In this document: piece by piece, positions 1 to 47,418 of the stretch
Layout: the number at the start of each line of letters is the position of its first letter
Numbering within the stretch: the stretch's first letter is position 1
NCBI GenBank assembly: GCA_903892355.1
Contig: CAITIE010000053.1
Span: forward strand, 1 to 56,354
Reading direction: 5' to 3'
DNA length: 56,354 bases
Origin: an uncultured Pirellula sp.
Lineage (GTDB): Bacteria; Planctomycetota; Planctomycetia; Pirellulales; Pirellulaceae
The notes under the pieces: generated by a model
The model's input: only the letters and a program-made list of their open reading frames with translations
What the model was told of the DNA's origin: nothing
The model's database searches: none
Translations under genes and position numbers: made by a program

Positions 1-540
1 GCGTTTGGGCTGGTGGATCGGGATTCGGGGCGATTGCTGGCGGAAACTTTGGAAATTCACACGCTCGAGCTTGGGTGGTATAATCTTCAGGAGAGCGAGC
101 TTGGGACCGCTAGCCTGCTGGACCGCTGGCTGTATTGGTTGTTGCACGCCCACCAGTACGATGCACAGACGCTTGTGAGTTTATTCCCCCAGCCCGAGTT
201 CCAGAAGGCCACCGACTCGATAGACCGGATAGCCAAGAAGACCGAGGACAAAGCCATGTACGATACACGTGAAAAAGCCATCCGCGACCAGCAGTGGATC
301 ATGAACGCCGCGCGGCGAGAAGCACGCGAGGAAGGCCTGCAAGAAGGCCGTGAAGTAGGCCTGCAAGAAGGCCGTGAAGTAGGCCGTGAGGAAGGTGAGG
401 TTTTCGGCAAAATTCGCATATTGCAAAATTTGCTGAGCCTCCCTCAGTCGACTGACGAGGAGCTGAAAACCAAATCCAGGACCGAACTGGAGACGTTAGC
501 AACCGAGCTCCAAGCACAGTTGCGAAAGCGGATGACATAG
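1..540 (+). CDS. Rpn-type PD-(D/E)XK nuclease / putative transposase, C-terminal part
   Basis: This is the 3' end of a gene that begins before the window; the frame is open from base 1. The readable first residues (AFGLVDRDSG, then LEIHTLELGWYN) match the stretch after the nuclease core in Rpn (recombination-promoting nuclease) proteins, where a conserved LEIHxLEL strand occurs. A Glu/Arg/Gly heptad-like segment (about residues 100-130, EGLQEGREVG repeated) follows, then a short helical tail ending QLRKRMT, as is usual in this family. The PD-(D/E)XK catalytic residues would lie upstream and cannot be checked. Known Rpn proteins cleave DNA and stimulate RecA-independent recombination. A GTG at base 13 is in frame but is very unlikely to be the real start because the homology runs straight through it. 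Confidence 0.8.
   Translation, partial: AFGLVDRDSGRLLAETLEIHTLELGWYNLQESELGTASLLDRWLYWLLHAHQYDAQTLVSLFPQPEFQKATDSIDRIAKKTEDKAMYDTREKAIRDQQWIMNAARREAREEGLQEGREVGLQEGREVGREEGEVFGKIRILQNLLSLPQSTDEELKTKSRTELETLATELQAQLRKRMT
334..381 (+). repeat. 24-bp in-frame tandem repeat, two exact units
   Basis: Two identical 24-bp units (334-357 and 358-381) lie inside the Rpn-like gene, followed by a degenerate third unit. Because 24 is a multiple of three, the repeat adds eight-residue blocks (GLQEGREV) to a helical Glu-rich linker without breaking the frame. Variable numbers of such blocks are common in this family. Confidence 0.85.
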
Positions 541-574
541 TTTCCATAGGAATCCAGTCCACCTGTCGCCCCCG

Positions 575-1073
575 ATGACGGAGCGTTGGCAGGTAAGTTA
601 TCCATCAGTGAGCGGCCGGTCCACCGCTTCGGTGCCCCGGATTGGTACGCTATTTTCCGTCGATTGGAGGGCCAAACGCACGATTAACATGACCGTGCCT
701 TTGCCAAAGACCGAGCACATTTCTGGTGGTGCCAGTCGAGTCTGCCCGCTGCTCCGCGAGCTCCGAGAAGTCCTTGAGCCGTACCGCAAGGCGTCTGGAT
801 TCGTTGTGGACGCGGATGACTTGCGAGCAAAGACTAGCGGTCTAGACGGTTGGGCAAATGCGAATCTACGGTCTGGTTTATTGGATTGCATGAAACGCGC
901 CGGAGTATTCACATTGGGCGCGTTTGTTCCACTCGATGAGAGCGAGCAGACAGACATAAGTAGAGAAAGACTTTGGTCTAGCCGCAGCATGTGCTTGGCT
1001 AGGCAACACCCAGGCGGTCGCGAAGCAACACTACCTATTGGTCACCTCTGAGGCATGGAAAAAAGCGACGTAA
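575..1073 (+). pseudogene. Degenerate tyrosine-type site-specific integrase (3' part)
   Basis: The frame starting at 575 contains a recognisable integrase segment: VDWRAKR, then VPLPKTEH, then RVCPLLRELREVLEPY, then the NLRSGLLDCMKRAGV helix of planctomycete phage-type integrases. Near 965-972 the homology jumps to another frame, which reads AAACAWLGNTQAVAKQHYLL up to a TAA at 1071-1073; this holds the box with the catalytic tyrosine (HY). In the region where the conserved HxxR arginine of the catalytic core should be, the sequence reads FVPLDES, so that arginine appears to be Asp. A frameshift, a lost catalytic residue and a missing N-terminal half all indicate a dead gene. It ends about 90 bp from the 3' end of the tRNA-Ala gene, a classical integration target. 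The family call rests on motif recognition. Confidence 0.75.
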
Positions 1074-1123
1074 AAAACGACGCAGTCAGACCCGATCAGA
1101 GTCAATCAGAGCACATCAGGAAT

Positions 1124-1158
1124 AAAAAAAGCCTGTGAAAACCAATGTTTCACAGGCT
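1124..1158 (-). terminator. Rho-independent terminator of tRNA-Ala
   Basis: An 11-bp perfect stem (AGCCTGTGAAA at 1130-1140 pairing with TTTCACAGGCT at 1148-1158) has a 7-nt loop. Read on the minus strand it is followed by seven T (1124-1130). It lies 5 bp past the tRNA 3' end and fits termination of the tRNA transcript. Confidence 0.85.
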
Positions 1159-1162
1159 AAAG

Positions 1163-1236
<74 letters not shown>

Positions 1237-1442
1237 GAAATTTTGGACTGGGTTCCAGGTCTCCCCGGAGCCAGCGAAGAAAAGACTATCGACGCCGGTC
1301 GAGTGTGTCAAGGTTCCTCGCAAAAGGAGTAGCCCCATCCCGCAAATGCTGGGTTTATCGCACGGGATCAGCTACACTAGACCGTCGCCCCGCCTTGAAC
1401 TCGCCTACCGCGACCCATCCCACCTTCAGCAACCCCACTGCC

Positions 1443-2492
<1,050 letters not shown>

Positions 2493-2981
2493 ACACTGCC
2501 GAAAAAAATGATAGCGCATCACTAGTTCTTATGCCCCTCAGTTCGAATGCCTTCGAGTGCCTCGGAATCCCAATCCGCCACCTCCCGGTTTTTTTGCGAT
2601 CCTGCTTGTCATCGCTCTCATAAATGCCGTATCGAGCCCGAGCGCCATTTCATGGAGCCCGGGCACCATTTCAATGAGCACGGGCAGGAGCGAAAGCCAA
2701 AGCGTCCGACAACTCACTTCCCGTTTATCGAACCGGCCACCCTCGTGTTCCTCGAACAAAATCGGGCTTCTCGTCGAACGGATCGCATTCGCTATAATCC
2801 GGTCCCGCGGCATTAGGTTCGTGGGGCGTTGTATTCGCGGGCCAATGTATTCGCGGGCCAATGTATTCGCGGGCCAATGTATTCGCGGGCCAATGTATTC
2901 GCGGGCCAATGTATTCGCGGGTATCGCCATCGATCGTTGTGCATACCTATCGACGCTGAACTTTATCAACGCAGGAATATC
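2493..2981. other. Gene-free interval with tandem repeat
   Basis: No convincing reading frame is seen on either strand; the long frames here are repeat-driven or shadows of mtnA. Within 2620-2690 the words GAGCC(C)G...GCACCATTTCA recur loosely (AGCGCCATTTCATGGAGCC, GGGCACCATTTCAATGAGC). The main content is the 16-bp repeat at 2831-2922, which ends about 60 bp before the mtnA start. Confidence 0.6.
2831..2922 (+). repeat. 16-bp tandem repeat, five exact copies plus a partial one
   Basis: The unit GTATTCGCGGGCCAAT occurs head to tail at 2831, 2847, 2863, 2879 and 2895, with a partial copy from 2911. The copies are identical, which implies recent expansion. The period is not a multiple of three, so copy-number change would shift any frame across it; this argues that mtnA begins downstream of it. 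Confidence 0.97.
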
Positions 2982-4079
2982 GTGGAAAATCCTTCCAACA
3001 ATGCAACTCCTCCCTACATTTCCGTACGTTGGATTGGAGACGCGTTGGGGCAGTTGGAACTGCTCGATCAAACCTTGCTTCCTAACACCGTCGAGATGGT
3101 ACCGCTCGATGATTTGCATGGCGTCCATGAAGCCATCGTGGCGCTGCGAGTGCGTGGCGCACCCGCTATTGGGATCGCAGCCGCTTATGGAGTCATCGTA
3201 GGACTTCAAGACGCGATACGTAGACGAGCGTCGACAGCGGAAGCGATCTCGGTCGCCACACTAGCGTGCGAATATCTTGCCACCAGCCGGCCAACGGCCG
3301 TCAATCTGTTTTGGGCTCTCGACCGGATGAAAAGGGTCATTGATCGCAATGCCGGTGTCGCATCCGCAGTGGAATTGGGAAACCAACTCCTTCGGGAGGC
3401 GAGATTGATCCACGATGAAGACCGTAGGATGTGCCATGCGATCGGAGAATACGGAGCCGCTTTGTTTGAAGAAGGCTTCGGTATTTTGACACATTGCAAC
3501 ACCGGGGGATTGGCTACCTCGGAATACGGAACAGCCCTCGCTGCGATCTTGACCGCGCACGACCAAGGCAAGGACATCCACGTCTTTGCGGACGAGACAC
3601 GGCCACTCCTTCAAGGGGCTCGATTGACCATGTGGGAGCTTCAGCAGTACGGCGTTCCGTGCACGTTGATCTGCGATTCCATGGCCCCTCAGGTCATGAG
3701 GGAGGGGCGTATCCAAGCGGTCATTGTCGGTGCGGATCGAATTACCGCTCGCGGTGATACTGCCAACAAGATCGGAACGTACGGCGTCGCGATTGCAGCA
3801 AAGCACCACGGTGTCCCATTTTACGTGGCTGCCCCTACCAGCACCTTCGATCTATCGATCGTCGATGGGAGCGAGATTCCAATCGAGCAACGCAAGTCCG
3901 AGGAGATCACTTGCGCGTTTGGTCGTCGAACGGCCCCGGAAGGAGTCTCCGTTTACAACCCGGCCTTTGACGTAACACCTGCCGAATTGATCACGGCCAT
4001 CGTCACCGAACGCGGAGTGATTCACCCGGTCGACGAGCATCATGTACGAGCCATGGTCGGACGGAACGCATCCGCCTGA
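2982..4079 (+). CDS. mtnA: S-methyl-5-thioribose-1-phosphate isomerase
   Basis: MtnA converts methylthioribose-1-phosphate to methylthioribulose-1-phosphate in methionine salvage. The 365-residue protein has the family blocks RGAPAIGIAAAYG, LTHCNTGGLAT, DETRPLLQGARLT and VGADRITARGDTANKIGT. The catalytic cysteine is Cys172 and the catalytic aspartate Asp252; their spacing of 80 is the same as in the Bacillus enzyme (160/240). I chose GTG 2982, preceded by AGGAA, because the frame upstream runs into the 16-bp repeat and has no homology. No other salvage gene lies nearby. The convergent histidine kinase gene ends 55 bp downstream. Confidence 0.95.
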   Translation: MENPSNNATPPYISVRWIGDALGQLELLDQTLLPNTVEMVPLDDLHGVHEAIVALRVRGAPAIGIAAAYGVIVGLQDAIRRRASTAEAISVATLACEYLATSRPTAVNLFWALDRMKRVIDRNAGVASAVELGNQLLREARLIHDEDRRMCHAIGEYGAALFEEGFGILTHCNTGGLATSEYGTALAAILTAHDQGKDIHVFADETRPLLQGARLTMWELQQYGVPCTLICDSMAPQVMREGRIQAVIVGADRITARGDTANKIGTYGVAIAAKHHGVPFYVAAPTSTFDLSIVDGSEIPIEQRKSEEITCAFGRRTAPEGVSVYNPAFDVTPAELITAIVTERGVIHPVDEHHVRAMVGRNASA

Positions 4080-4134
4080 TCGGCCAAAAGTTCGGCGATC
4101 GCCCCTTCCGGTGCTCACCGCGAACCGATTCGGT

Positions 4135-5571
4135 TCATTGCGAACCAAGTGGGATGCGCACGACGCACTGCGTACCACCGTTGGGAGTACGACTAAATCG
4201 CAACGTACCCCCAAGCCCTTGGATGACGTTTCGTGTCAAAAAGACACCGAGCCCCATCCCTTCGCCAACTTCTTTGGTGGTAAAGAAAGGCTCACCGATT
4301 CGTCGCAACACATCGTCTGTCATCCCGGAACCTTGATCAGCGATCTCCAGCACCCAAGTTCGCTGATCGTTCTCGGCGCGATGGATGGTGGAGTTTACAT
4401 CGACGTGCTGATTGGGTTTGGATGCATCCAAACCATTCTGGAGCAGATTGCGCAGCGCCTGGGAAAGGGCTTGTTTGGGAAGAAGTGCCTTGAAATCCGC
4501 GACCGCTCGTTCCATCGCGATATGGACACGCTGGGGCTCACGCATTGCAATCACCGTTTCATCGAGGATTTCCTGGACCCTTACCGGATGCAAATGCTCC
4601 GCCGCAGCTTCTCCTGCCCCGCTTTTCATCCGATGCAAAATATCTTTACAACGATTGAGCTCCTCTCGGATCAGCCCAAAATCCCGACGAACTTTATCTG
4701 GAATGTCTTGTTTGTCGAGCGTGCGAGACAGCTCGCCAGCGATGACCGCAATGGTCGACAACGGACTTGCTAATTCATGCCCTGCGCCGGCTGCAAGGGT
4801 CGCAAGGGCCTCGAGACGCTGAGCACGCTCACGCTCTTTCTCGGCGATCGCCAATCGCCGATCCCGCTGTCGGACCTGCAAGGCCAACATGGACACGAAG
4901 TAGGCGAGCACGCCGCAACATGTTGTGAATGCAATCAGAAAAGCCGCCTTAGTCACATCCCATGGTGAATCAGCAGCGAGTGGTGAGTTGGCAAAGACTA
5001 CATTGGGGGTCGCTCGATTGAGGAGAAAAAATGCACCGAGCACTGAAGCGGCCGAAATCGCGATCGCCCAGAACCGGGAAAGCACCACACCGGCGACGAC
5101 GATGTTGGCCACATAAAACAGTATAAACGGATTCGCCGCACCGCCGGATAGATAGAGCAGCCCCGTCAAAATCATCACGTCGAACAAAAGCAATCCACCA
5201 AGCGTCCGCGAACCGACCGAACCATGATGGATTCCAAAACTCACTCCAAAGCTCTGTCCGGAATTTGCTTGGCGATCGATCGGCATCTCTGATGACGCAT
5301 TCAGCGATCGGCGGGCCACGAACCACAAAGCGACATTGCTGGCCACGGTGCATAACACCAACGCCAACATCGACACGATCGGCAACTCTATCTTGAGCAC
5401 AAAATAGACAAATCCGATGACGAGCAATTGGCCTGCGACAGCGATCCACCGCAACTGCGTCAACCAAATCGCGGAGGAGCCATGACCATTCGGATCATTT
5501 TGAGAGCGACTCAGCCCACTTGACGCATTAGCTTCCTGCAAGATGCTTTCCTTGTTCTGGTAAGTTAGCAA
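4135..5571 (-). CDS. RegB/PrrB-like membrane sensor histidine kinase
   Basis: This is a 478-residue membrane kinase. The N-terminal half has about six hydrophobic segments (residues 35-240). Between them lies GGAANPF (residues 143-149), which matches the GGxxNPF quinone-binding heptapeptide of RegB/PrrB/ActS redox sensors. The H-box GAGHELASPLSTI has its phosphoacceptor at His265, and the ATPase half has N (LLQNGLDAS), G1 (DQGSGM), F (EPFFTTK) and G2 (GMGLGVF) boxes. The family senses quinone redox state and phosphorylates a RegA-type regulator. No response regulator is adjacent, so its partner is elsewhere. The frame opens at TTG 5571; a second TTG at 5541 with AAGGAA upstream is an equally good start. 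Confidence 0.88.
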   Translation of the reverse strand: MLTYQNKESILQEANASSGLSRSQNDPNGHGSSAIWLTQLRWIAVAGQLLVIGFVYFVLKIELPIVSMLALVLCTVASNVALWFVARRSLNASSEMPIDRQANSGQSFGVSFGIHHGSVGSRTLGGLLLFDVMILTGLLYLSGGAANPFILFYVANIVVAGVVLSRFWAIAISAASVLGAFFLLNRATPNVVFANSPLAADSPWDVTKAAFLIAFTTCCGVLAYFVSMLALQVRQRDRRLAIAEKERERAQRLEALATLAAGAGHELASPLSTIAVIAGELSRTLDKQDIPDKVRRDFGLIREELNRCKDILHRMKSGAGEAAAEHLHPVRVQEILDETVIAMREPQRVHIAMERAVADFKALLPKQALSQALRNLLQNGLDASKPNQHVDVNSTIHRAENDQRTWVLEIADQGSGMTDDVLRRIGEPFFTTKEVGEGMGLGVFLTRNVIQGLGGTLRFSRTPNGGTQCVVRIPLGSQ

Positions 5572-5603
5572 TGAGAATGTTTAGCCACGTTTACGCAAAA
5601 GCA

Positions 5604-5639
5604 GATCGAAATCGCGGGGCCGATCGAAATCGCAGGGTC
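5604..5639 (+). repeat. 18-bp tandem duplication between genes
   Basis: Two near-identical 18-bp units (GATCGAAATCGCGGGGCC and GATCGAAATCGCAGGGTC) lie between the start of the kinase gene and the stop of the UnbV gene. They are one of many short duplications in this window. Confidence 0.8.
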
Positions 5640-5641
5640 AA

Positions 5642-7531
5642 CTACGGCTCCTCGACCACGAGGATATCGCGATCCCATCCATTAAGAATGACTGTTTGCG
5701 ATTTGCCACTTGGCCAATCGATGGTCAGCGAGGGGGAATCGGTAGCCGCAGATGCGGGAACGCCAAAATGAACAAGCGATTCGCCGGTCGCGGCGTAGGA
5801 ACCACCCCCAAAACGCTGGCGCACCCAAGACTTTCCGCCGGCATCCAGTCGGACTGAGGCACCGATGGCGTCTCGATTGGACGATGTCCCAATGAGACGC
5901 ACAACGACGTACTTACCGAGTCGTTTGGATCGATTCTCCACCAATGCAGCATCCATGTTGAGGCGACTGACTGCGTAGTCCAGCAACCCATCGCGATTAA
6001 AATCCGCCATCGCTACGGCTCGTGACGGTTGTGGCACGGCCAAGTAATTTCCGTCGCGAGGCACCAATCGAAAAAACTTGCCCTCGATGTTATCGAGGAT
6101 TTGGGGCCGTTGGTCGAAAGCGGAACCGATCGCGCGGGTTTCGATATGCCCATTCGCGACCACTAAATCTTCATCTCCATCGAGCTCCATATCGACAAAC
6201 GCGGTGCCCCAACCTACCGATGCTTCATCGGTGAGCCCAATCCGAGCCGCATTCGATGCGTAAGTGAAGAACAGATTGCCGTTGTTTTTGTAGAGGGCAT
6301 TAACTTCGTTTTGGTAATTGGTGACCCAAAGATCGAGCTTGCCATCGAGATTGTAATCACCGAATGCGATCCCCATGCTACCCTCTGGTATCCCAGAATC
6401 GTTGCATGCGACACCGCTTCGACGAGCCACCTCCGTAAAATGAAAATCCCCGTCGTTACGATACAACAAGTTAGGATCGACATCGTTGGAAACGTAGATA
6501 TCCACGTCGCGATCTCCATCCAGGTCTGCCGCCATGATACCGAGCCCACGGAGCGTCTCATCGATACCAACGGCCTCTGAGAGATCGGCAAACGTACCAT
6601 CCCCTCGGTTTTCAAACATCGCATCGGTCAATCCCTTGAACTCTCTCGGTCCGCAGTAGTCGACAACGCTCTCCGAACTCCCGGGGCCCGCGGGGACTTT
6701 GCAAATCGGATTGTTGTCAAAGGACCAGTTCGCATAGTGCGCAATGTACAAGTCGAGTAATCCATCATTATTGGCGTCGAAAAACGCCGCTGCCGAACTC
6801 CATTGCGAATCCACTAGTCCGATTCCAGCACCTGCCGACTCAAGCGCCGGTGCCGAGACGAGTTCAAGCGTACCATCACCACAATTACGAAAGAGTTGCA
6901 AACCCGAATATCCGGTAGTCAACACATCGGGGAATCCATCGCCATCGTAATCCGCGATTGCAATGGCGCAATTGTAGGTCGCGGACAGATCAATCCTCGA
7001 TGGTTCCGAAGCCGACTTAAAAACAAACCCGGATTGATTGCGAAGCAAGGCACCCGAGAACCCACGCATGGTTTTGCTTGGCACATCCGGCGCACCACCA
7101 CCTGCCGCGAGTATATCGGGCCGACCGTCGAGATCGTAATCGAAGACCGCGATTCCACCGCCGGTAGTCTCTGGAAGAAACATGTTCCCAAGTTCGCTGC
7201 CATTGCGATACAGGGAGCCGGCCAAGGCTCCTTCGTGCATATGAACCGCGATGTTATTGGTCGCAAGAATTGAAGCCCCGGAACTCGAGGTACCGGGAGC
7301 ACTGGCACCCGGTAGATTGCTTGAGGTTGCACCGTTTGCAATCGTGAAGTTACTCCCCGTGCTGTTATTCGTAGCGTTTCCTTTTAGAAAATCTGGGGGA
7401 TTTTCTTTGGGTTTACAGCCCGACAGCAGCATGCCCACGCCGACTATCGCAACGCAGGACCTGATCGCTGGCCACCGCAGGAGCCGAGTGATGGAACAAG
7501 CAACGAAGGTCGGCAAAGCGTCCAGGCTCAC
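5642..7531 (-). CDS. FG-GAP/VCBS repeat lipoprotein with ASPIC/UnbV C-terminus (CRTAC1-like)
   Basis: The 629-residue product has a hydrophobic N-terminus ending in a lipobox (MLLSGC, Cys39), so it is predicted to be a lipoprotein. The body is a beta-propeller of FG-GAP/VCBS repeats carrying Ca-binding loops such as DYDGDGFPDV, DANNDGLLDLY, DLDGDRDVDIYVSND, DYNLDGKLDLWVTN and DFNRDGLLDY. The end (IGASVRLDAGG, HFGVP, IDWPSGK) is the ASPIC/UnbV domain, so the architecture is that of CRTAC1-like proteins. Function in planctomycetes is not known; an extracytoplasmic binding role is inferred. It starts at a GTG that overlaps the stop of the upstream TPR gene (GTGA), so the two are translationally coupled. 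Confidence 0.9.
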   Translation of the reverse strand: MSLDALPTFVACSITRLLRWPAIRSCVAIVGVGMLLSGCKPKENPPDFLKGNATNNSTGSNFTIANGATSSNLPGASAPGTSSSGASILATNNIAVHMHEGALAGSLYRNGSELGNMFLPETTGGGIAVFDYDLDGRPDILAAGGGAPDVPSKTMRGFSGALLRNQSGFVFKSASEPSRIDLSATYNCAIAIADYDGDGFPDVLTTGYSGLQLFRNCGDGTLELVSAPALESAGAGIGLVDSQWSSAAAFFDANNDGLLDLYIAHYANWSFDNNPICKVPAGPGSSESVVDYCGPREFKGLTDAMFENRGDGTFADLSEAVGIDETLRGLGIMAADLDGDRDVDIYVSNDVDPNLLYRNDGDFHFTEVARRSGVACNDSGIPEGSMGIAFGDYNLDGKLDLWVTNYQNEVNALYKNNGNLFFTYASNAARIGLTDEASVGWGTAFVDMELDGDEDLVVANGHIETRAIGSAFDQRPQILDNIEGKFFRLVPRDGNYLAVPQPSRAVAMADFNRDGLLDYAVSRLNMDAALVENRSKRLGKYVVVRLIGTSSNRDAIGASVRLDAGGKSWVRQRFGGGSYAATGESLVHFGVPASAATDSPSLTIDWPSGKSQTVILNGWDRDILVVEEP

Positions 7532-8925
7532 TGAGTCCCCTTGCGTAGATTGATGTACCGTTGATGACGAGCGGCGAGTTCCATTTGGTTAGTCCTAGTG
7601 AAGTAGATCACAAGATCTTCGTGAGCGGGCAAGTGGTTCGCGTCGACCATCAAGGCCGAGTTGAGCCAGTGCAACCCGTCCTCTCGCGATTGTTTGTGCA
7701 GGAAAATATGTCCTAGCTCATAGTTCTTTTCGGCCGATTGGTCCGTCCCAGAGAGGAGTCGTGCGATTCGGTTGTCGATGGATTGCACGTCGGCTTGTCC
7801 TGCCTCTGCAATCTTCGCATACCTCTCCGCTTCAGAATTGTTACTTAGCGCCTGGTGAGCTTGACTCAAAAGGTTCGCGGTCCGAACATCTTCAGGCCAG
7901 AGGGTGGCGACATTCGATAAAGTATCGATCACCTTTTGCGGTTCATTTTTGGCAATGTAGATTCGCGCGAGAACTTGACGCATGTCCGTAGTCGCTTTGC
8001 CCGACTCCATCATCGGTTGCAATAGTTCGATCACTTCGTCCCCCCGATCCAGATTGGAGAGCGCCGTGGCGAGCACACCGATCGCATCCAAATCGTTGGG
8101 GGAGCCTTTCAAGTAGCGTTGCAAGGACCGGACAGCCCGGTCGTAGTCTCGAGTCATCGAGTACGCTGACGCAAGTTGACGGTAGACAGGCAGAAAATCG
8201 GGTCTCGTTGTAGCGGATTTCTCAAGAGCAGTAATGGCACTTGCAGAATCGCGATTGGAGAGCGCGATCATACCTCGAAAGAAGGGAACCCATGGAGAAT
8301 CCGGTTGCTGTTGGCCCCAAAAGTTCAAGAAGGCATCAACCGTTCCAAATTGCATTTTGCCGAGCAAGCCATAGACCACCGCTGGCCCGACTTCGGAGAT
8401 ATCGGTATCAGGCAAAGCCATCGCTTTGGCGATCGAGGAGTCGACGTCGTCCCCGATCCCCAACTGGGTCTCGCGCAGCAGCTTTTCCCCTTGGATCTTT
8501 TCTGGGGAGTAACCGAGTTGCCGCGCCAATTCCAAAAATTGCGCAAACGCGATGTCGTCCCCAAGGTGCCGGTACGCACGGCTTCTTAAAAACGCCGATT
8601 CCGCAGTAAGGCCATTCGTTTTTTCAAGCTTCTTAATTTCCGTGACCGCAGCCAGATTATCCCAGTTCTCGAGGGCTTTGTTGATGCGGAGGATCGAGGT
8701 GGTATAGCGATTCCGATAATACCCAAAGCCGGCCAAAGGAATGAGGATCGCTAGGAGAATCCCGAGCCGAATCCAGGTCCATGCCGACGACTTTGGTCCC
8801 GCCGACGTCCGCTCCTCCTCCATGGCGTTAGCAGCGGCAATTGCGGCCGCGGCAGAAATCGCATCCGCTTCGGAGAGTGGAATTGCATTGGAAAGATTCT
8901 TCGACTGCGTTTTGGATCGGACCAT
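7528..8925 (-). CDS. Membrane-anchored tetratricopeptide repeat protein
   Basis: A 465-residue protein with a short Ala/Glu-rich cytoplasmic N-terminus, one transmembrane helix (about residues 50-67, LGILLAILIPLAGFGYY) and then a long array of TPR-type helix pairs; examples are VYRQLASAYSMTRDYDRAVRS and NYELGHIFLHKQSREDGLHW. It has no enzymatic motif. Its stop overlaps the GTG start of the UnbV lipoprotein, so the pair probably works together at the cell envelope, the TPR solenoid as scaffold and the propeller as ligand binder (inference). Such TPR + ASPIC/UnbV pairs are frequent in planctomycetes. Confidence 0.85.
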   Translation of the reverse strand: MVRSKTQSKNLSNAIPLSEADAISAAAAIAAANAMEEERTSAGPKSSAWTWIRLGILLAILIPLAGFGYYRNRYTTSILRINKALENWDNLAAVTEIKKLEKTNGLTAESAFLRSRAYRHLGDDIAFAQFLELARQLGYSPEKIQGEKLLRETQLGIGDDVDSSIAKAMALPDTDISEVGPAVVYGLLGKMQFGTVDAFLNFWGQQQPDSPWVPFFRGMIALSNRDSASAITALEKSATTRPDFLPVYRQLASAYSMTRDYDRAVRSLQRYLKGSPNDLDAIGVLATALSNLDRGDEVIELLQPMMESGKATTDMRQVLARIYIAKNEPQKVIDTLSNVATLWPEDVRTANLLSQAHQALSNNSEAERYAKIAEAGQADVQSIDNRIARLLSGTDQSAEKNYELGHIFLHKQSREDGLHWLNSALMVDANHLPAHEDLVIYFTRTNQMELAARHQRYINLRKGTQ

Positions 8926-42075: not shown

Positions 42076-45057
42076 ATGCACTCTCGCGCCACTGCAAGGT
42101 CGGCTCGTTTCCGAGCAAGGTCGTTCGCTGCGTTTTTTCCCCAAACGCTAGCGCAGGTCTTCGTGATGCTGCTCGTCGCCATCCCATCCCAAGGGCTGGG
42201 ACAACTCGCGACCTTGCACGAACAGATCGACCAGTCCCTCTCCAAATCCCCGGTGTGGCTTCAAGCTTCCCAGCAACCAGATAGCTTGAGCCTTCGACGT
42301 CTCTCTTTGGATCTCCGAAACATTATCCCGACCCAGGAGGAACTCGATGCCTTTGCCAGCGAACCGGTGGAAGGACGCTGGGAACGATGGATCGATCGAT
42401 TCCTTAGCGATCCGCTCTATCGTGAGCGAATGGTCGACTGGTTCGATAAAGGCTTGATGCAGCGCAGACCGTTCCAAAACGTCGATCGACCCACCTGGAT
42501 CCGGTATCTACGGGATTCGGTCGATGCGAATTTGCCACTTGATCAAATGATGCGGGAAATGATCCAGAGCGCATGGTGGGACAAAAGCCAACGCGCTCAG
42601 CAACGATTCTATTTGGACCGAGGTGGCGACTCTCATGCCATCGCGCGAGATCTGGGCCGCGTCTTGTTCGGTCGGGACATGCAATGCGCTCAATGCCATG
42701 ACCATCCGCAAATCGACGACTATCTACAAATCGATTACCACGGGCTCCTAGCGTTCGTCTCCGCCGGTTCGATGGTGGAAGGAAAAACAACGGATGAAAA
42801 AGGTGCTGAACAAAAACTACAGATGTACGTCGAGCGCGCAGCAGGAGATGCACCGTTTGAATCGGTATTCAACAAAGGGGTTTCATTCCGCACCGCAAGC
42901 CGCATGCTGGAGACTCCGGAGAAGCTCGAACCTTACCTGGCCCCAGACGCTCGTTATCAACCCGCCGCCATGCCCGGCACCTTCGCCGGTGTACCGGCAC
43001 CACCTGTTTCAAGCCGCCGCGCACTCCTTGCGGCTCAACTGACTAGCGAGAACCGCGCCTTCGCAGCCAACTGGGCCAATCGGATTTGGGCGATCATGTT
43101 CGGACGGGGCTTGGTCCATCCACTAGACATGCACCATTTCGATAATCCGGCCAGCCATCCGGAATTACTCCAGCAACTAACCGCCTCCCTTGTCGAATCT
43201 AAATTCGACATCAAGCCGGTGCTGCGTCAGATCGCACGCAGCCAAGCATACCGTCGTGGGCGTTCGACACCGCTTCACCAAACCCTCGACATTGATTCCG
43301 TAATCGCCACCAACCCCGATCTGCTCAAGCAGTGGTACGATCAGGTGCAAGCCGAACTCGCATCTTACAAGAGCCGTATCGAACAAGCCGATGGAATCGT
43401 TAACGCGCATCACTCCACGATGGAAACCGCATCGAACTCGTGGCGGGATGTCCAAAAAGACCGAGTGACACTGCGTTTGGAACTCGATGGGGCTGAAGCC
43501 AAATTCCAAGATTCCAACAAGAAGTGGAACGATGCCGTTGCGGCCGCCGACAAAGCCAAAGGAGCCCATGCCGCTTTGGCTCAGAAAATCCAGTTGATCG
43601 ATGAAGCGGCCCAGAAGCTTGAACAAGCCAAATCGATTGGCGATGATCCTGAAGTCCAAGCTGTCATCGCGACAACGAAGGCCAAGGCGGATGCGTTGCG
43701 ACCGCAGTTAGTCCCGCTCGAACAAGCTTCCACGGCAGCAGCAATGACTCGCGATACGGCGGCACAAACCAAAGAAGGTGAACGTGTTGCATGGCAAGCT
43801 GTCGTCACCAAATTGCAGCCGGTCGAAGAACGGCTTTTGCAAGCAGACATTGCCATGGTTCAAGCGAGAATGGCATACCAAACCGCCCGCCGCAATGCCG
43901 CATGGCTCCGCGAGGACCAGAACCGCTGGGAACGCCTGGCTGAATGGTTCTCGATATCCGCCAAAGTACGAGACGCCGAAGCTCAACTGTTGCAGATCGC
44001 CGAGAGCCTGCGAACGACCGGCGAGAGGATAAAGGTATTGGGGGATTCGATGGCCTCCGCGGAACAGTCGCTCGCAACCCACCAAAAAGAACACCAAGAA
44101 TACGGTCTTCAAGTTGCCTCTAAAATCTCATCGATGAGCGAGGTTGTCTCGCAACGCGATCGATTGTCAACCGCCGCCAAGGCACTCGCGGATGCGAGCG
44201 GATTGGTCACCAATGGGGGTAATGTTGAACCTGCTAAGCAAGAACTCGAAGCAGCCATCGCCGCCCGAACCACACAACTAGCTTCGCTCGAAACAGAACT
44301 TGTTTCGATGAAAACCCAAGCCACCGCATTGGAATCCAAAGTCAATGCAGCAGCACAGGTGGTTGGAAAATCGAAGGAGGATGCCCAAGCCGCCCAACTC
44401 GAACTACAAACGATCACCACAAAGAACACCGAAGTTCAAACGCAGCGAAAAACATTGCGAGAACAATGCGGTGTGATGCGAGCCGAAGTCGAGTCGGATT
44501 TGCAAGCCGTTGGTTCGATTGCGGCCGAGCGAGCATTGAGCCCTGAGCAGTTCGGCTGGTCGATTCTGGTCGCAACCAACGTCTTCGCAGGGTACCTTCA
44601 GAACGAAAAGAACGAACTCGACAAGAATGCTCCTCTTCCTCAGGATGCCCCACCTGAACAAATAGCAGCGAGGGAACTTCAAATCACTCGCGGTGCGATC
44701 GACAAACTGCAGTCGAGCGTCGACAACTTTTCTCGACTATATGCATCGGGTGTCGGCCAAACTGCAGACGAGTTCTTCGCGTCTCCGGATCAAGCCCTCT
44801 ATGTTGCGAATGGAGGGGCGGTACACAGTTGGGCTGCCCCCAGCGGAAACAATATTTCTGCCAAATTGGTGCAGGCCACGGACGTCCAGCAAGCGGTTAA
44901 ACTGTTGGTTTGGGGATTGCTCTCGCGCGAACCCCAGCCTGACGAAATGCGTTTGATTTCCGAATTGATCGCCAAGAGCGGGGATACAAAACCGGCTGTT
45001 GTGCAAGAGTTGGTATGGAGCATTCTCGCAGGAGTCGAGTTTCGCTTATATCCATAA
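42076..45057 (+). CDS. DUF1549/DUF1553 protein with CxxCH motif and long coiled-coil insert
   Basis: A 993-residue exported protein. After a hydrophobic leader (QVFVMLLVAIPSQGLG) comes DUF1549 (SLRRLSLDLRNIIPTQEELD, RERMVDWFDKGL) with CAQCHDHP at 204-211, a possible heme or metal site. DUF1553 follows (FAANWANRIWAIMFGRGLVH, DIKPVLRQIARSQAYRRG). At about 415-815 a roughly 400-residue Ala/Glu/Gln-rich coiled coil is inserted, and the DUF1553 C-terminus resumes with LLVWGLLSREPQPDEMRLI and ends EFRLYP. The pair DUF1549/1553 + DUF1501 is a planctomycete hallmark of unknown function; the coiled coil is not typical. It is the first gene of a three-gene operon. Confidence 0.9.
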   Translation: MHSRATARSARFRARSFAAFFPQTLAQVFVMLLVAIPSQGLGQLATLHEQIDQSLSKSPVWLQASQQPDSLSLRRLSLDLRNIIPTQEELDAFASEPVEGRWERWIDRFLSDPLYRERMVDWFDKGLMQRRPFQNVDRPTWIRYLRDSVDANLPLDQMMREMIQSAWWDKSQRAQQRFYLDRGGDSHAIARDLGRVLFGRDMQCAQCHDHPQIDDYLQIDYHGLLAFVSAGSMVEGKTTDEKGAEQKLQMYVERAAGDAPFESVFNKGVSFRTASRMLETPEKLEPYLAPDARYQPAAMPGTFAGVPAPPVSSRRALLAAQLTSENRAFAANWANRIWAIMFGRGLVHPLDMHHFDNPASHPELLQQLTASLVESKFDIKPVLRQIARSQAYRRGRSTPLHQTLDIDSVIATNPDLLKQWYDQVQAELASYKSRIEQADGIVNAHHSTMETASNSWRDVQKDRVTLRLELDGAEAKFQDSNKKWNDAVAAADKAKGAHAALAQKIQLIDEAAQKLEQAKSIGDDPEVQAVIATTKAKADALRPQLVPLEQASTAAAMTRDTAAQTKEGERVAWQAVVTKLQPVEERLLQADIAMVQARMAYQTARRNAAWLREDQNRWERLAEWFSISAKVRDAEAQLLQIAESLRTTGERIKVLGDSMASAEQSLATHQKEHQEYGLQVASKISSMSEVVSQRDRLSTAAKALADASGLVTNGGNVEPAKQELEAAIAARTTQLASLETELVSMKTQATALESKVNAAAQVVGKSKEDAQAAQLELQTITTKNTEVQTQRKTLREQCGVMRAEVESDLQAVGSIAAERALSPEQFGWSILVATNVFAGYLQNEKNELDKNAPLPQDAPPEQIAARELQITRGAIDKLQSSVDNFSRLYASGVGQTADEFFASPDQALYVANGGAVHSWAAPSGNNISAKLVQATDVQQAVKLLVWGLLSREPQPDEMRLISELIAKSGDTKPAVVQELVWSILAGVEFRLYP

Positions 45058-45073
45058 ACGAAAAAAATGGTGC

Positions 45074-45096
45074 CCGCCAACATCGCGTGTTGGCGG
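45074..45096 (+). promoter_or_regulatory. Intercistronic hairpin between the DUF1549/1553 and DUF1501 genes
   Basis: CCGCCAACA and TGTTGGCGG form a perfect 9-bp stem with a TCGCG loop, 17 bp after the stop and 35 bp before the next start. There is no T tract, so it is more likely a stability or processing element than a terminator. Confidence 0.6.
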
Positions 45097-45130
45097 AGCA
45101 GAGGTCCGTATAGGAACGAGGAGCATCGCT

Positions 45131-46432
45131 ATGAAGATTGCTAAATACGCTTGTGGTTCGACGGATCACATCGTCAATCGACGCAGGTTTCTTTCGGGGG
45201 TAGCAGGAAGCGTCGCAACAACCGGCGCGGTCGTGGGTGGCCTCGGGACGCTTACGCAGGGAATCGCTGCTGCCGAAATCCAGCGACGGGACATGCGCGT
45301 CGTGGTCTTTAACATGCACGGCGGCTTGAGCCAACTGGAGAGCTGGGATCCCAAACCTCTCACGCGGACCGGCGGACCATTCCGAGCTATCCCAACGAGC
45401 GTTCCTGGAATCCACGTCAGCGAATTGCTACCGATGACGGCCAAGCAGATGCATCATCTTTGCTTGCTGCGAGGTGTGAACACCTCTGAAGATGATCACG
45501 GTAAAGGGGCTTACATGATGCTGACCGGTCGAAGGCAAACACCCTCGGCAGAGTTCCCGCAAATCGGTTCCGTCGCTGCAAAGATGCTGCATGATGACCA
45601 AACTGGTTTACCTGGACACATCGTCGTAACTCCGGGCGGAGGTGGGGGTCGCGGTAATGAGGCCGCTTATCTGGGCCCCAAGTTCTCCAGCATTCAACTC
45701 GGCGGAGACAAACCACCTCAGAACTCGAACAAACCGGATGCGGTCTCCGATGAAGCCGAAAAGCGGCGGCATGAGATTCGCCGCAAGATCAACGAACAGT
45801 TCCTGAACCAACGCCGCAGCGCGATCACGGATGCATACACGCATTCCTACGAGCAAGCCCTAAGACTCATGGAACGCCGCGAAGTGTTTGATGTCTCCAA
45901 GGAACCCGACAGCGCCAAGCAACGCTATGGCAGTTCCGACCTCGGCCGCCAATGCTTGATGGCGCGTCGATTGCTCGAAAATGGCGTGTCGTTCGTTCAA
46001 GTCACCCACTCCAATTATGACACCCATAACGACAACTTCAATTTCCACATCGAACAAGTCGGTGAGTTCGATCAAGCCTTCGCAACCTTCATCGACGATC
46101 TCGCGCAGCGTGGCATGCTGGAGAAGACCTTGGTCGTGGTGCTGAGCGAGTTTGGACGCACTCCGAACATAAACCTCTACTACGGCCGCGATCACTGGTC
46201 CAAAGCGTGGTCGATCGCCATGGCGGGAGCAGGTGTGCAACACGGGGTAGCGTTTGGCAAGACCAACGACGAGGGGACCGAGGTTATCGACGGCCAATGC
46301 GATCACGGAGATATCTTCCATACGATCTTGCGAGCCGTCGGAGTCGACTCCAGCCAATCCCTCATCGTTGATGGACGCGAGGTTCCGATCGCCGATCCGG
46401 CCGCAGAGCCGATCTGGAAGGTTTTGGCATGA
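45131..46432 (+). CDS. Tat-exported DUF1501 protein
   Basis: The 433-residue protein starts at ATG 45131 (GAGGAG 8 nt upstream) and has a twin-arginine signal (NRRRFLSGVAGSVATTGAVV). The DUF1501 body, which has an alkaline-phosphatase/sulfatase-like fold, shows VVFNMHGGLSQLESWDPKP, LCLLRGVNTSEDDHGKGAYMM, GSDLGRQCLMARRLLENG-like sequence, FVQVTHSNYDTHNDN and VVVLSEFGRTPN followed by GRDHW. These His/Asp-rich motifs suggest a metal site. No activity is established for the family. Its TGA overlaps the ATG of the WD40 gene (ATGA). Confidence 0.92.
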   Translation: MKIAKYACGSTDHIVNRRRFLSGVAGSVATTGAVVGGLGTLTQGIAAAEIQRRDMRVVVFNMHGGLSQLESWDPKPLTRTGGPFRAIPTSVPGIHVSELLPMTAKQMHHLCLLRGVNTSEDDHGKGAYMMLTGRRQTPSAEFPQIGSVAAKMLHDDQTGLPGHIVVTPGGGGGRGNEAAYLGPKFSSIQLGGDKPPQNSNKPDAVSDEAEKRRHEIRRKINEQFLNQRRSAITDAYTHSYEQALRLMERREVFDVSKEPDSAKQRYGSSDLGRQCLMARRLLENGVSFVQVTHSNYDTHNDNFNFHIEQVGEFDQAFATFIDDLAQRGMLEKTLVVVLSEFGRTPNINLYYGRDHWSKAWSIAMAGAGVQHGVAFGKTNDEGTEVIDGQCDHGDIFHTILRAVGVDSSQSLIVDGREVPIADPAAEPIWKVLA

Positions 46433-47418
46433 TCGATTTGGACATCCAAAAGTCGCACGTCATCCATCAATGGAAAGCCGACTCGCCCTTGATTGCTTGC
46501 CGGATTTCCCCGCGCGGTGATCAGTGCGTCAGCGCCGCTCAAGACTCAACGCTCCAGCGTTGGAATATCCCGGGTGGTGAAAAGGTCGTGCTCAAGGGTC
46601 ACGAGAGCTGGGCACATGCGTTGACGTACAACACGACCGGGGATTTGCTGATATCGGGTGGTTGTGAAGGCCGATTGATTTGGTGGTCGATCGCAGACGT
46701 TGAACCTAAAGCGATCCGCACCATCGATGCACACCAAGGCTGGATTCGAGGGGTGGAGCGATCGCCGGACGGACAGACGTTGGTTTCCGTAGGGAACGAT
46801 CGAACCATCCGATTGTGGAAGACAGATAGCGGTGAAAAATTAGCTGAATGGTCAGCCCACGACCGGCACATCTACAGCGCGGCATTCCATCCCGATGGAG
46901 TCCATTTATTGACCGGTGACTTGATGGGTAAAATCCACGTGTGGAAGCTAGCCGATCGCACGTTGGTGAGGACACTCGATGGGAGTACGCTCTATGGCCC
47001 CAACCCAGGCCAAGCCGCCGAGTTCGGGGGAGTGCGGTCTTTAGCGATCTCCCCCAATGGCACTGAGGTCTTTGCGGCAGGGACGCATAAGGGGAGCAAT
47101 CCGTTCGGCGCGGTGCACGAACCGCTGTTGCTACGCTTCCAATGGACCGATGGTGCACTCACGAAATCGCATGTGTGCGATGGAATTCCAGGCGGGTTGC
47201 TTTTCCGCGCGTGCTCGCTCAACGATGCCACGGTGGTGAGTGTCTCCGGTGGATCGACTGGGGGTATTTTGTTGTTCTTCAATGCGACGCAAGAGAAAGA
47301 AGTGCATCGCGCGATGCTGCCGAACATCGCCCGCGACATGGACCTTCATGCAGCGACGGGGTTGGTCGCGAGCGCCCACCACGATTCCCATCTCCGAATC
47401 AGTGGACTCTTTGCATAG
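46429..47418 (+). CDS. WD40 repeat beta-propeller protein
   Basis: A 329-residue protein built almost wholly of WD40 repeats (six to seven blades): SAAQDSTLQRWNI, ISGGCEGRLIWWSI, VSVGNDRTIRLWKTDSGEKL, LTGDLMGKIHVWKLADRTLV, and degenerate later blades. It has no signal peptide and no catalytic domain, so it should be a cytoplasmic adaptor unless it is exported with a partner. Translation is coupled to the Tat substrate DUF1501 by an ATGA overlap, which implies a stoichiometric or folding relation (inference). Confidence 0.9.
   Translation: MIDLDIQKSHVIHQWKADSPLIACRISPRGDQCVSAAQDSTLQRWNIPGGEKVVLKGHESWAHALTYNTTGDLLISGGCEGRLIWWSIADVEPKAIRTIDAHQGWIRGVERSPDGQTLVSVGNDRTIRLWKTDSGEKLAEWSAHDRHIYSAAFHPDGVHLLTGDLMGKIHVWKLADRTLVRTLDGSTLYGPNPGQAAEFGGVRSLAISPNGTEVFAAGTHKGSNPFGAVHEPLLLRFQWTDGALTKSHVCDGIPGGLLFRACSLNDATVVSVSGGSTGGILLFFNATQEKEVHRAMLPNIARDMDLHAATGLVASAHHDSHLRISGLFA

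Follow-up and report, generated by a model that had tools for sequence, protein, structure and literature searches.

Proteins of the DUF1501 family are known from Planctomycetes and Verrucomicrobia as members of two-gene pairs, in which a gene for a protein with PSCyt2 (DUF1549) and PSD1 (DUF1553) domains stands directly before the DUF1501 gene; going by the accessible parts of the sources, these pairs have no assigned function and are thought to be redox, carbohydrate, or envelope related (PMC5615132, PMC2754498, PMC4452313, PMC4960237). The same partial texts propose roles in carbohydrate metabolism (PMC5615132) and redox reactions (PMC2754498), list WD40 among the domains found inside PSCyt proteins (PMC5615132), and place a DUF1501 gene module in the compartmentalized bacteria of the Planctomycetes-Verrucomicrobia-Chlamydiae group (PMC4452313, PMC4960237). 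DUF1501 is also a frequent neighbor of WD40 genes in Planctomycetes (7 species) according to the available text of a 2017 WD40 survey, that is, the DUF1501-WD40 neighborhood itself is already published (PMC5587647). None of the literature found, as far as its text was open to us, reports a tested function for DUF1501 or PSCyt2, and the accessible portions of PMC8567305 and PMC11495043 do not treat these families. In this study, we analyzed a set of three genes—here called A, B, and C—in a window of 56,354 nucleotides (the whole stretch of DNA analyzed) from an uncultured Pirellula sp. (contig CAITIE010000053.1), where the PSCyt2/PSD1 gene (A) and the DUF1501 gene (B) are followed by a gene for a WD40 propeller (C), and where the signal of B carries a conserved Cys/His tag that goes with the presence of C. 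The features are the following:

42076..45057, + strand: gene A, PSCyt2 (DUF1549) plus split PSD1 (DUF1553); ATG start, 993 aa, signal-like N-terminus by eye
42685..42708, + strand: CAQCHDHP in A, residues 204-211; c-type heme motif CxxCH plus HP, read from the sequence
43315..44508, + strand: predicted coiled-coil insert of A, residues 414-811 (AlphaFold model)
45131..46432, + strand: gene B, DUF1501 protein; ATG start, 433 aa, twin-arginine signal, alkaline-phosphatase-superfamily fold by model
45152..45184, + strand: n-region tag of the B signal, C8-x4-H13-x3-R17-R18 (B alignments and regular-expression counts)
46416..46421, + strand: GGAAGG, Shine-Dalgarno-like, within the end of B and 7 nt 5' of the C start (recognized by eye)
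46429..47418, + strand: gene C, WD40 propeller; ATG start, 329 aa, without signal peptide, its start overlapping the B stop

The layout given in an initial annotation of this DNA, with three genes on one strand, a 73-bp gap between A and B, and a 4-bp overlap of B and C (ATGA, 46429-46432), is confirmed by the coordinates. Pfam finds PSCyt2 at residues 65-229 of A and PSD1 in two stretches (best 314-398), DUF1501 in B at 330 bits, and WD40 in C (PF00400, E value 6.7e-25, with 3 stretches passing singly); PSCyt2 and PSD1 in one protein beside DUF1501 all lie above the Pfam cutoffs. The set resembles the described two-gene pairs in its domains, in the position of A directly before B, and in the retained CxxCH, and differs from them in that (i) a separate gene C is present, (ii) the signal of B is tagged, (iii) a coil splits PSD1, and (iv) B of this set groups apart on the tree. 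With the 2017 survey it shares the neighborhood, whereas the A-B-C order, the signal tag, a signal- or coil-bearing C, and a mechanism do not appear in the accessible text of that work (PMC5587647).

Our main finding concerns the n-region of the B signal. The motif RR-x-[FLMWVI] lies within the first 45 residues in 97 of 97 B sequences (excluding L134, whose N-terminus is missing, and the low-scoring L081; L numbers denote loci and G numbers genomes), and with an N-terminal RR-x-F-L-like motif ahead of a hydrophobic stretch the signal is of the twin-arginine translocation (Tat) type by sequence, as first annotated; Tat export of B is predicted. The n-region of B in the window reads CGSTDHIVNRR, and an alignment of 40 B proteins shows no variation at C8, H13, R17, or R18. 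Across the 97 B sequences of the clade described below, position −9 from RR is Cys in 89 of 96 sequences and position −4 is His in 88 of 97. The entropy at these places is 0.42 bits for Cys and 0.66 bits for His, compared to 1.9-3.8 bits at other n- and h-region positions outside RR-x-F-L. The pattern was not seen in 29 lower-scoring DUF1501 rows without C, among which L081 does have a WD40 neighbor. Searched as the regular expression C-x4-H-x(2-4)-RR, the tag occurs in 79 of 88 loci with a linked C and in 1 of 31 without (Fisher p 5e-19, uncorrected for shared ancestry; L134 and L174 are excluded for incomplete N-termini, and the 31 include L211, an unrelated DUF1501 at that place), as well as in 5 of 5 loci whose C stands not directly downstream. 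Of twenty further loci chosen regardless of the tag, 4 tagged and 2 untagged ones had C, 11 untagged ones had none, 2 tagged ones were truncated, and 1 showed neither RR nor C; a C-like gene stands beside 4 of 4 tagged B with downstream sequence versus 2 of 13 untagged (p 0.006). Two of those four tagged loci lie in G006 and G032, genomes scored empty by the propeller search, yet a weak C follows the tagged B there. Within the source genome, 21 other DUF1501 frames were examined, and the tag appears solely in L088, also the sole A-B-C set of this kind among them (G000:C58:21000-33000, 3890-8006, minus strand; short A, tagged B, signal-less C). The n-region tag and its association with a linked C look new: in the literature covered on DUF1501, DUF1549, DUF1553, PSCyt, and WD40 plus Tat, which mostly leaves out subscription papers, nothing was found on such a tag or on the coil swap described below.

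Around orthologues of B, the order A-B-C is the rule. The named loci are the best 80 of at least 598 matches, 49 with B above 365 bits and 31 below 360 bits. A linked C is present in 44 of the 49 (in L113 after a second DUF1501); in the other five, C stands one gene further (L107), the contig ends (L120, L123), C lies elsewhere in the genome (L098), or there is none (L128). Downstream of B, no C was found in any of the 31 loci below 360 bits, although the border is not sharp, with L247 (364 bits), L249 (361), and L254 (348) being tagged and L247 and L254 having C. On a tree of B (143 sequences reduced to 131 rows by removing 12 at 97% identity or shorter than 300 aa), linked C all fall into one 98-row set (Shimodaira-Hasegawa-like approximate likelihood ratio test [SH-aLRT] 93), except for L081 on a long branch, and without L081 a single change on the tree accounts for linked C (L211, L134, L167, and L174 are likewise excluded). 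The rejection given by an AU test (p 8e-9) was set aside as mis-specified, since the 39 rows that it opposed to the 87 with linked C include tagged B whose C is unlinked or cut off. Pairwise scores over 71 loci correlate with rho 0.91 for B-C, 0.76 for A-B, and 0.81 for A-C (A being its first 420 residues). By record title, the C-bearing loci are mostly Planctomycetota, with four Verrucomicrobia (L130, L131, L141, L142). Among 60 related genomes, B (at least 50% identity) occurs in 40, own included, and C (1e-50) in 39, all within those 40 (counts made by hand; in G046, the B genome without C, B lies at a contig end), whereas a profile at 1e-35 finds C in 41; in an even draw of 294 genomes across the phylum, with 7 candidates scored per genome, C (1e-60) was found in 20, own included. 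The module is thus common near this lineage and patchy beyond. Because gene order is conserved at the amino-acid level across genera, families, and orders, the set is not due to chance, which supports one three-gene unit with a lasting B-C pairing; WD40 next to DUF1501 is found in many genomes and not solely in the source genome, and the initial idea therefore survives this check.

The proposed translational coupling of C to B is common, with a B-C spacing of −4 nt in 40 of 87 loci (L113 left out), but it is dispensable, since spacings reach 209 nt and C lies on a contig other than that of B in G044 and G034. An extra gene stands between B and C in L113 (6378-7832, the second DUF1501), L107 (4302-6185), and L214 (4982-7156). 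In L167, a 1319-aa frame (125-4084) with a strong propeller-profile match lies directly upstream of an A-B pair without downstream C.

The signal status of C and the location of the coil bear on where C acts. Judged by hydropathy and by eye, C of the window has no hydrophobic N-terminal stretch, as initially noted (highest 11-residue mean hydropathy within the first 45 residues ~0.7, the value of its orthologues L031, 99% identical, and L032, 94%), and a signal is absent from C in 80 of 88 loci with linked C; L088 exceeds the hydropathy cut, yet its stretch lies within the first blade and it was counted as signal-less. A signal-like N-terminus was seen on C in L107, L112, L113, L138, and L218-L222 and, outside the clade, in L081; the 4-nt overlap with B is retained by the signal-bearing C of L112 and L218-L222. 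L081 is a source-genome A-B-WD40 row (G000:C120:38500-50000, 3107-8135) with an untagged B and the signal-like start on its WD40 protein. Also in the source genome, WD40 proteins near PSCyt2 genes have CxxCH and a signal-like N-terminus (L076, L079, L082, L091, L093), and in L079 WD40 and PSCyt2 share one 1729-aa open frame.

A roughly 400-residue coil splitting DUF1553 in A, as first annotated, agrees with the AlphaFold model, whose predicted helices (414-521, 525-707, and 717-811; 108, 183, and 95 residues; mean predicted local distance difference test [pLDDT] score 88.4) span 398 residues, the central one being ~27 nm long if straight. Long A proteins (open frames of 793-1114 aa where complete) form one 49-row set (SH-aLRT 94), with L064 (690 aa, 90-residue stretch) as a short version, and in the remaining C-bearing clade the open frame of A has 535-700 aa; outside the clade, A is long in L164 and L081 without an equally long coil-like stretch. 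A separate 7-row clade (SH-aLRT 99) has a short A (579-649 aa) and bears a coil-like stretch on C instead, between the signal-like N-terminus and the propeller (L107, L112 from a Gimesia sp., L113, L218, L220, L221, and L222, with L219 a near copy of L218). The basis for calling this coil is its sequence, which is poor in Gly and Pro and has a weak to fair heptad signal, and the WD40 after it was confirmed by Pfam. By length cuts, among 72 loci with a complete A and a linked C, the coil is on A in 34, on C in 6, on neither in 32, and on both in 0. We take this swap as a sign that A and C may share one complex and one compartment, and it is plausible that the coil tethers the complex, as proposed at the outset. 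That one 7-row clade has the coil on C and not on A, and a signal-like N-terminus on this protein as well, looks new.

Based on these observations, we tentatively favor, at somewhat less than even chances, a conserved envelope module in which C would bind tagged B before leaving the cytoplasm, exit with it, and join the predicted rod-bearing, heme-type A. Within the cytoplasm, signal-less C would dock on B at the twin-arginine signal with its Cys/His tag; C would then cross the membrane together with folded B; B and C would reach the predicted Sec-exported, heme-c-type A with its predicted coiled-coil rod; and this rod would space or anchor the complex. C is the best candidate reader of the tag because the tag faces the cytoplasm before export and C is the only product of the unit without a signal. 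Relatives of C that have both a signal-like N-terminus and a coil occupy its place in the operon, which suggests a home outside for a propeller of this family; docking inside and exit with folded B would follow from joining the two. A bolder version, which we regard as unlikely, would make the WD40 protein the dedicated cytoplasmic escort of one Tat clade, which reads the Cys-x4-His tag, exits with its folded client, and becomes a subunit of a heme complex with a rod in the envelope, the Gimesia-like propeller having gained a signal and a coil while the tag drifted.

The closest described arrangements are the Tat hitchhiker pairs and the chaperones called redox enzyme maturation proteins (REMPs), in which a signal-less partner shares an operon with a twin-arginine substrate, as C does here; the likeness is one of arrangement, and no sequence relation is claimed. 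Examples are hydrogenase subunits, TorD/DmsD, and NapD. By hydropathy, C has no signal of its own, and as a hitchhiker it would depend on its partner for export; the sole pointer to binding of the Tat signal of the partner, which marks REMPs, is the conserved n-region of B. Unlike the REMP families TorD/DmsD and NapD, C is a WD40 protein; we know of no WD40 propeller acting as a Tat hitchhiker or REMP, and none in a Tat-partner role was found in the literature naming both twin-arginine and WD40, as far as its text was available. The exported setting assumed in the initial annotation is supported by sequence, and its suggestion that the propeller meets B before export gains new support from the n-region tag; on its choice between guarding B and traveling with it, the evidence points both ways.

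The first alternative is that C acts as a cytoplasmic guard, binding the tag like a twin-arginine proofreading chaperone until B is folded or loaded with metal, and stays inside. It shares with co-export the step in which C would bind tagged B in the cytoplasm, and we consider it a close rival, though somewhat unlikely. It fits the prevalence of signal-less C and the location of the tag in the cytoplasm-facing part of B, and it is favored by the composition of C and by a second C, both of which weigh against co-export. Signal-less propellers contain 1.26% Cys compared to 0.75% in mature B and 0.58% in A, and their mean net charge is −4.4 (78 signal-less C) versus +7.7 in 7 signal-bearing C, the charge gap being somewhat smaller within one genome (8 versus 17; 2 versus 9); this Cys-richer, acidic composition, more so than in the exported neighbors, leans toward the cytoplasm, and co-export stays a tentative choice over the guard because of it. 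Also against co-export, C unlinked from B is still without a clear signal in L226, L227, and L229 (L225 is ambiguous, with a short hydrophobic start that depends on the start codon). Further, a second, shorter C is kept in 8 of 8 genomes with a signal- and coil-bearing C (G107, G128, G239, G285, G296, G352, G353, G354) and is signal-less in all five examined (G128, G239, G352-G354), so that a cytoplasmic job beyond the exported form of C is possible. A search with a joined B+C query gave no B-C fusion among the 120 matches listed of 2755, all of DUF1501 length with at most 57% query cover, and so says nothing either for or against contact. Two further points stand against the co-export reading: L128 has a tagged B and 6 kb of downstream sequence with no A or C nearby by tblastn (it lies outside the 31 no-C rows of the tag count); and the available text of one study ascribes Sec-type signal peptides, not Tat, to proteins of DUF1501 clusters (PMC4452313). 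Against the guard stand the signal-like N-termini on relatives of C: a guard cannot act from outside, yet it is a signal-bearing C that overlaps B by 4 nt in L112 and L218-L222. The coil, found on C or on A as though both share one place, also speaks against it.

A second alternative, which we hold to be somewhat unlikely and which is compatible with the other readings (the odds hence do not sum to one), is that B uses the tag to sense metal, heme, or redox state and that the link of the tag to C is pure shared ancestry. Since linked C arose once, tag and C share a history, and much of their association is shared descent. By eye, a Cys also lies shortly before RR in ~9 of 20 untagged DUF1501 frames examined in the source genome, which hints at a wider role of this residue. 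On the other hand, the n-region of a signal is normally variable and usually cleaved, and shared descent fails to explain the fixation of two residues in such a stretch. The tag is also altered where C has its own signal: it stands beside signal-less C in 77 of 80 loci and beside signal-bearing C in 2 of 8 plus L107 (kept are L107, L113, and L138, with near copies removed). Five of the six losses beside signal-bearing C, with spacing changed to C-x2-H, belong to the one Gimesia-like clade and therefore count as one event, and the sixth is L081, outside the clade. Against the co-export reading, the tag is also absent beside signal-less C in L133, L129, L139, L252, L265, and L274.

A third alternative, which we find quite improbable, takes C as an independent cytoplasmic sensor or regulator that makes no contact with B, the operon keeping dosage. 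The unlinked C of G044 and G034 would fit, as would the enrichment of WD40 genes in Planctomycetes described in the accessible text of the survey (PMC5587647), but the correlation of scores is stronger between B and C than between A and either of them, and the tag of B goes with C. Finally, that this is an ordinary paralogous PSCyt2-DUF1501 pair whose WD40 neighbor has no functional tie could be entertained in view of the 72 DUF1501 and 66 PSCyt2 matches in the source genome (6.2 Mb), but it is contradicted by the survey, in which different genera, families, and (going by record titles) two phyla share the gene order, and is very improbable.

The domains of A and B indicate what such a module might do. 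The CAQCHDHP motif annotated in A is present, with C204, C207, H208, H210, and P211 invariant in 38 of 38 aligned A proteins (truncated or frameshifted A excluded), and heme binding and Sec export of A are predicted from sequence; its PSCyt2 score of 85.5 bits is the third-lowest of the 66 in the source genome. For A, no solved relatives were found by sequence, and nothing in the PDB matched its model at E 0.001, weaker matches being long-helix resemblances; both absences are uninformative. B is predicted to adopt the fold of the alkaline phosphatase superfamily (NPP, PafA, sulfatases): its model agrees in overall fold, with Foldseek template modeling (TM) scores of only 0.27-0.44, a large root mean square deviation, and 10-15% identity, and a profile comparison aligned 39 columns only, with residues mapped by eye. 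Searches for solved relatives of B by sequence gave only weak or short stretches, an uninformative absence. Invariant in B are G64-G65-x-S67-Q68-x-E70-xx-D73, H123, D297-x-H299, E340-F-G, and D354-H355 (window 45296-46417), and the modeled fold with these D/H/E residues suggests a metal site. The D-H/N-G of the superfamily reads E-F-G in B, and by motif reading its nucleophile Ser/Thr/Cys appears replaced by His, H123 lying by eye at the place of the sulfatase formylglycine Cys; with this invariant His at the presumed nucleophile position, a role in hydrolyzing phosphate or sulfate esters is no more than a default guess. Together, the CxxCH of A and the fold of B suggest an envelope complex of the redox or metal-enzyme type. 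Kamneva et al. in 2012 reportedly proposed a membrane-targeted electron-transport role for the DUF1501 module.

Between A and B, a strong hairpin at ~45071-45100 (the gap as a whole scoring z −2.6) was dropped because L031 and L032, the closest relatives, do not retain its stem, and promoter and terminator scans gave chance-level results only. Three loci titled Akkermansia muciniphila (L102, L122, L171) hold DUF1501 genes, whereas that species is without the module in the accessible text of PMC4960237; the titles are possibly wrong.

If the tag is the docking site, it would represent a new kind of Tat client recognition, with a propeller in place of the known chaperone folds. The module also offers a case in which to test how folded proteins could exit bacterial cells in pairs. 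DUF1501 and PSCyt2 are greatly expanded in the source genome, and a defined three-gene clade with its marked signal, signal-less partner, and naturally swapped coil makes the question of their function testable at the bench.

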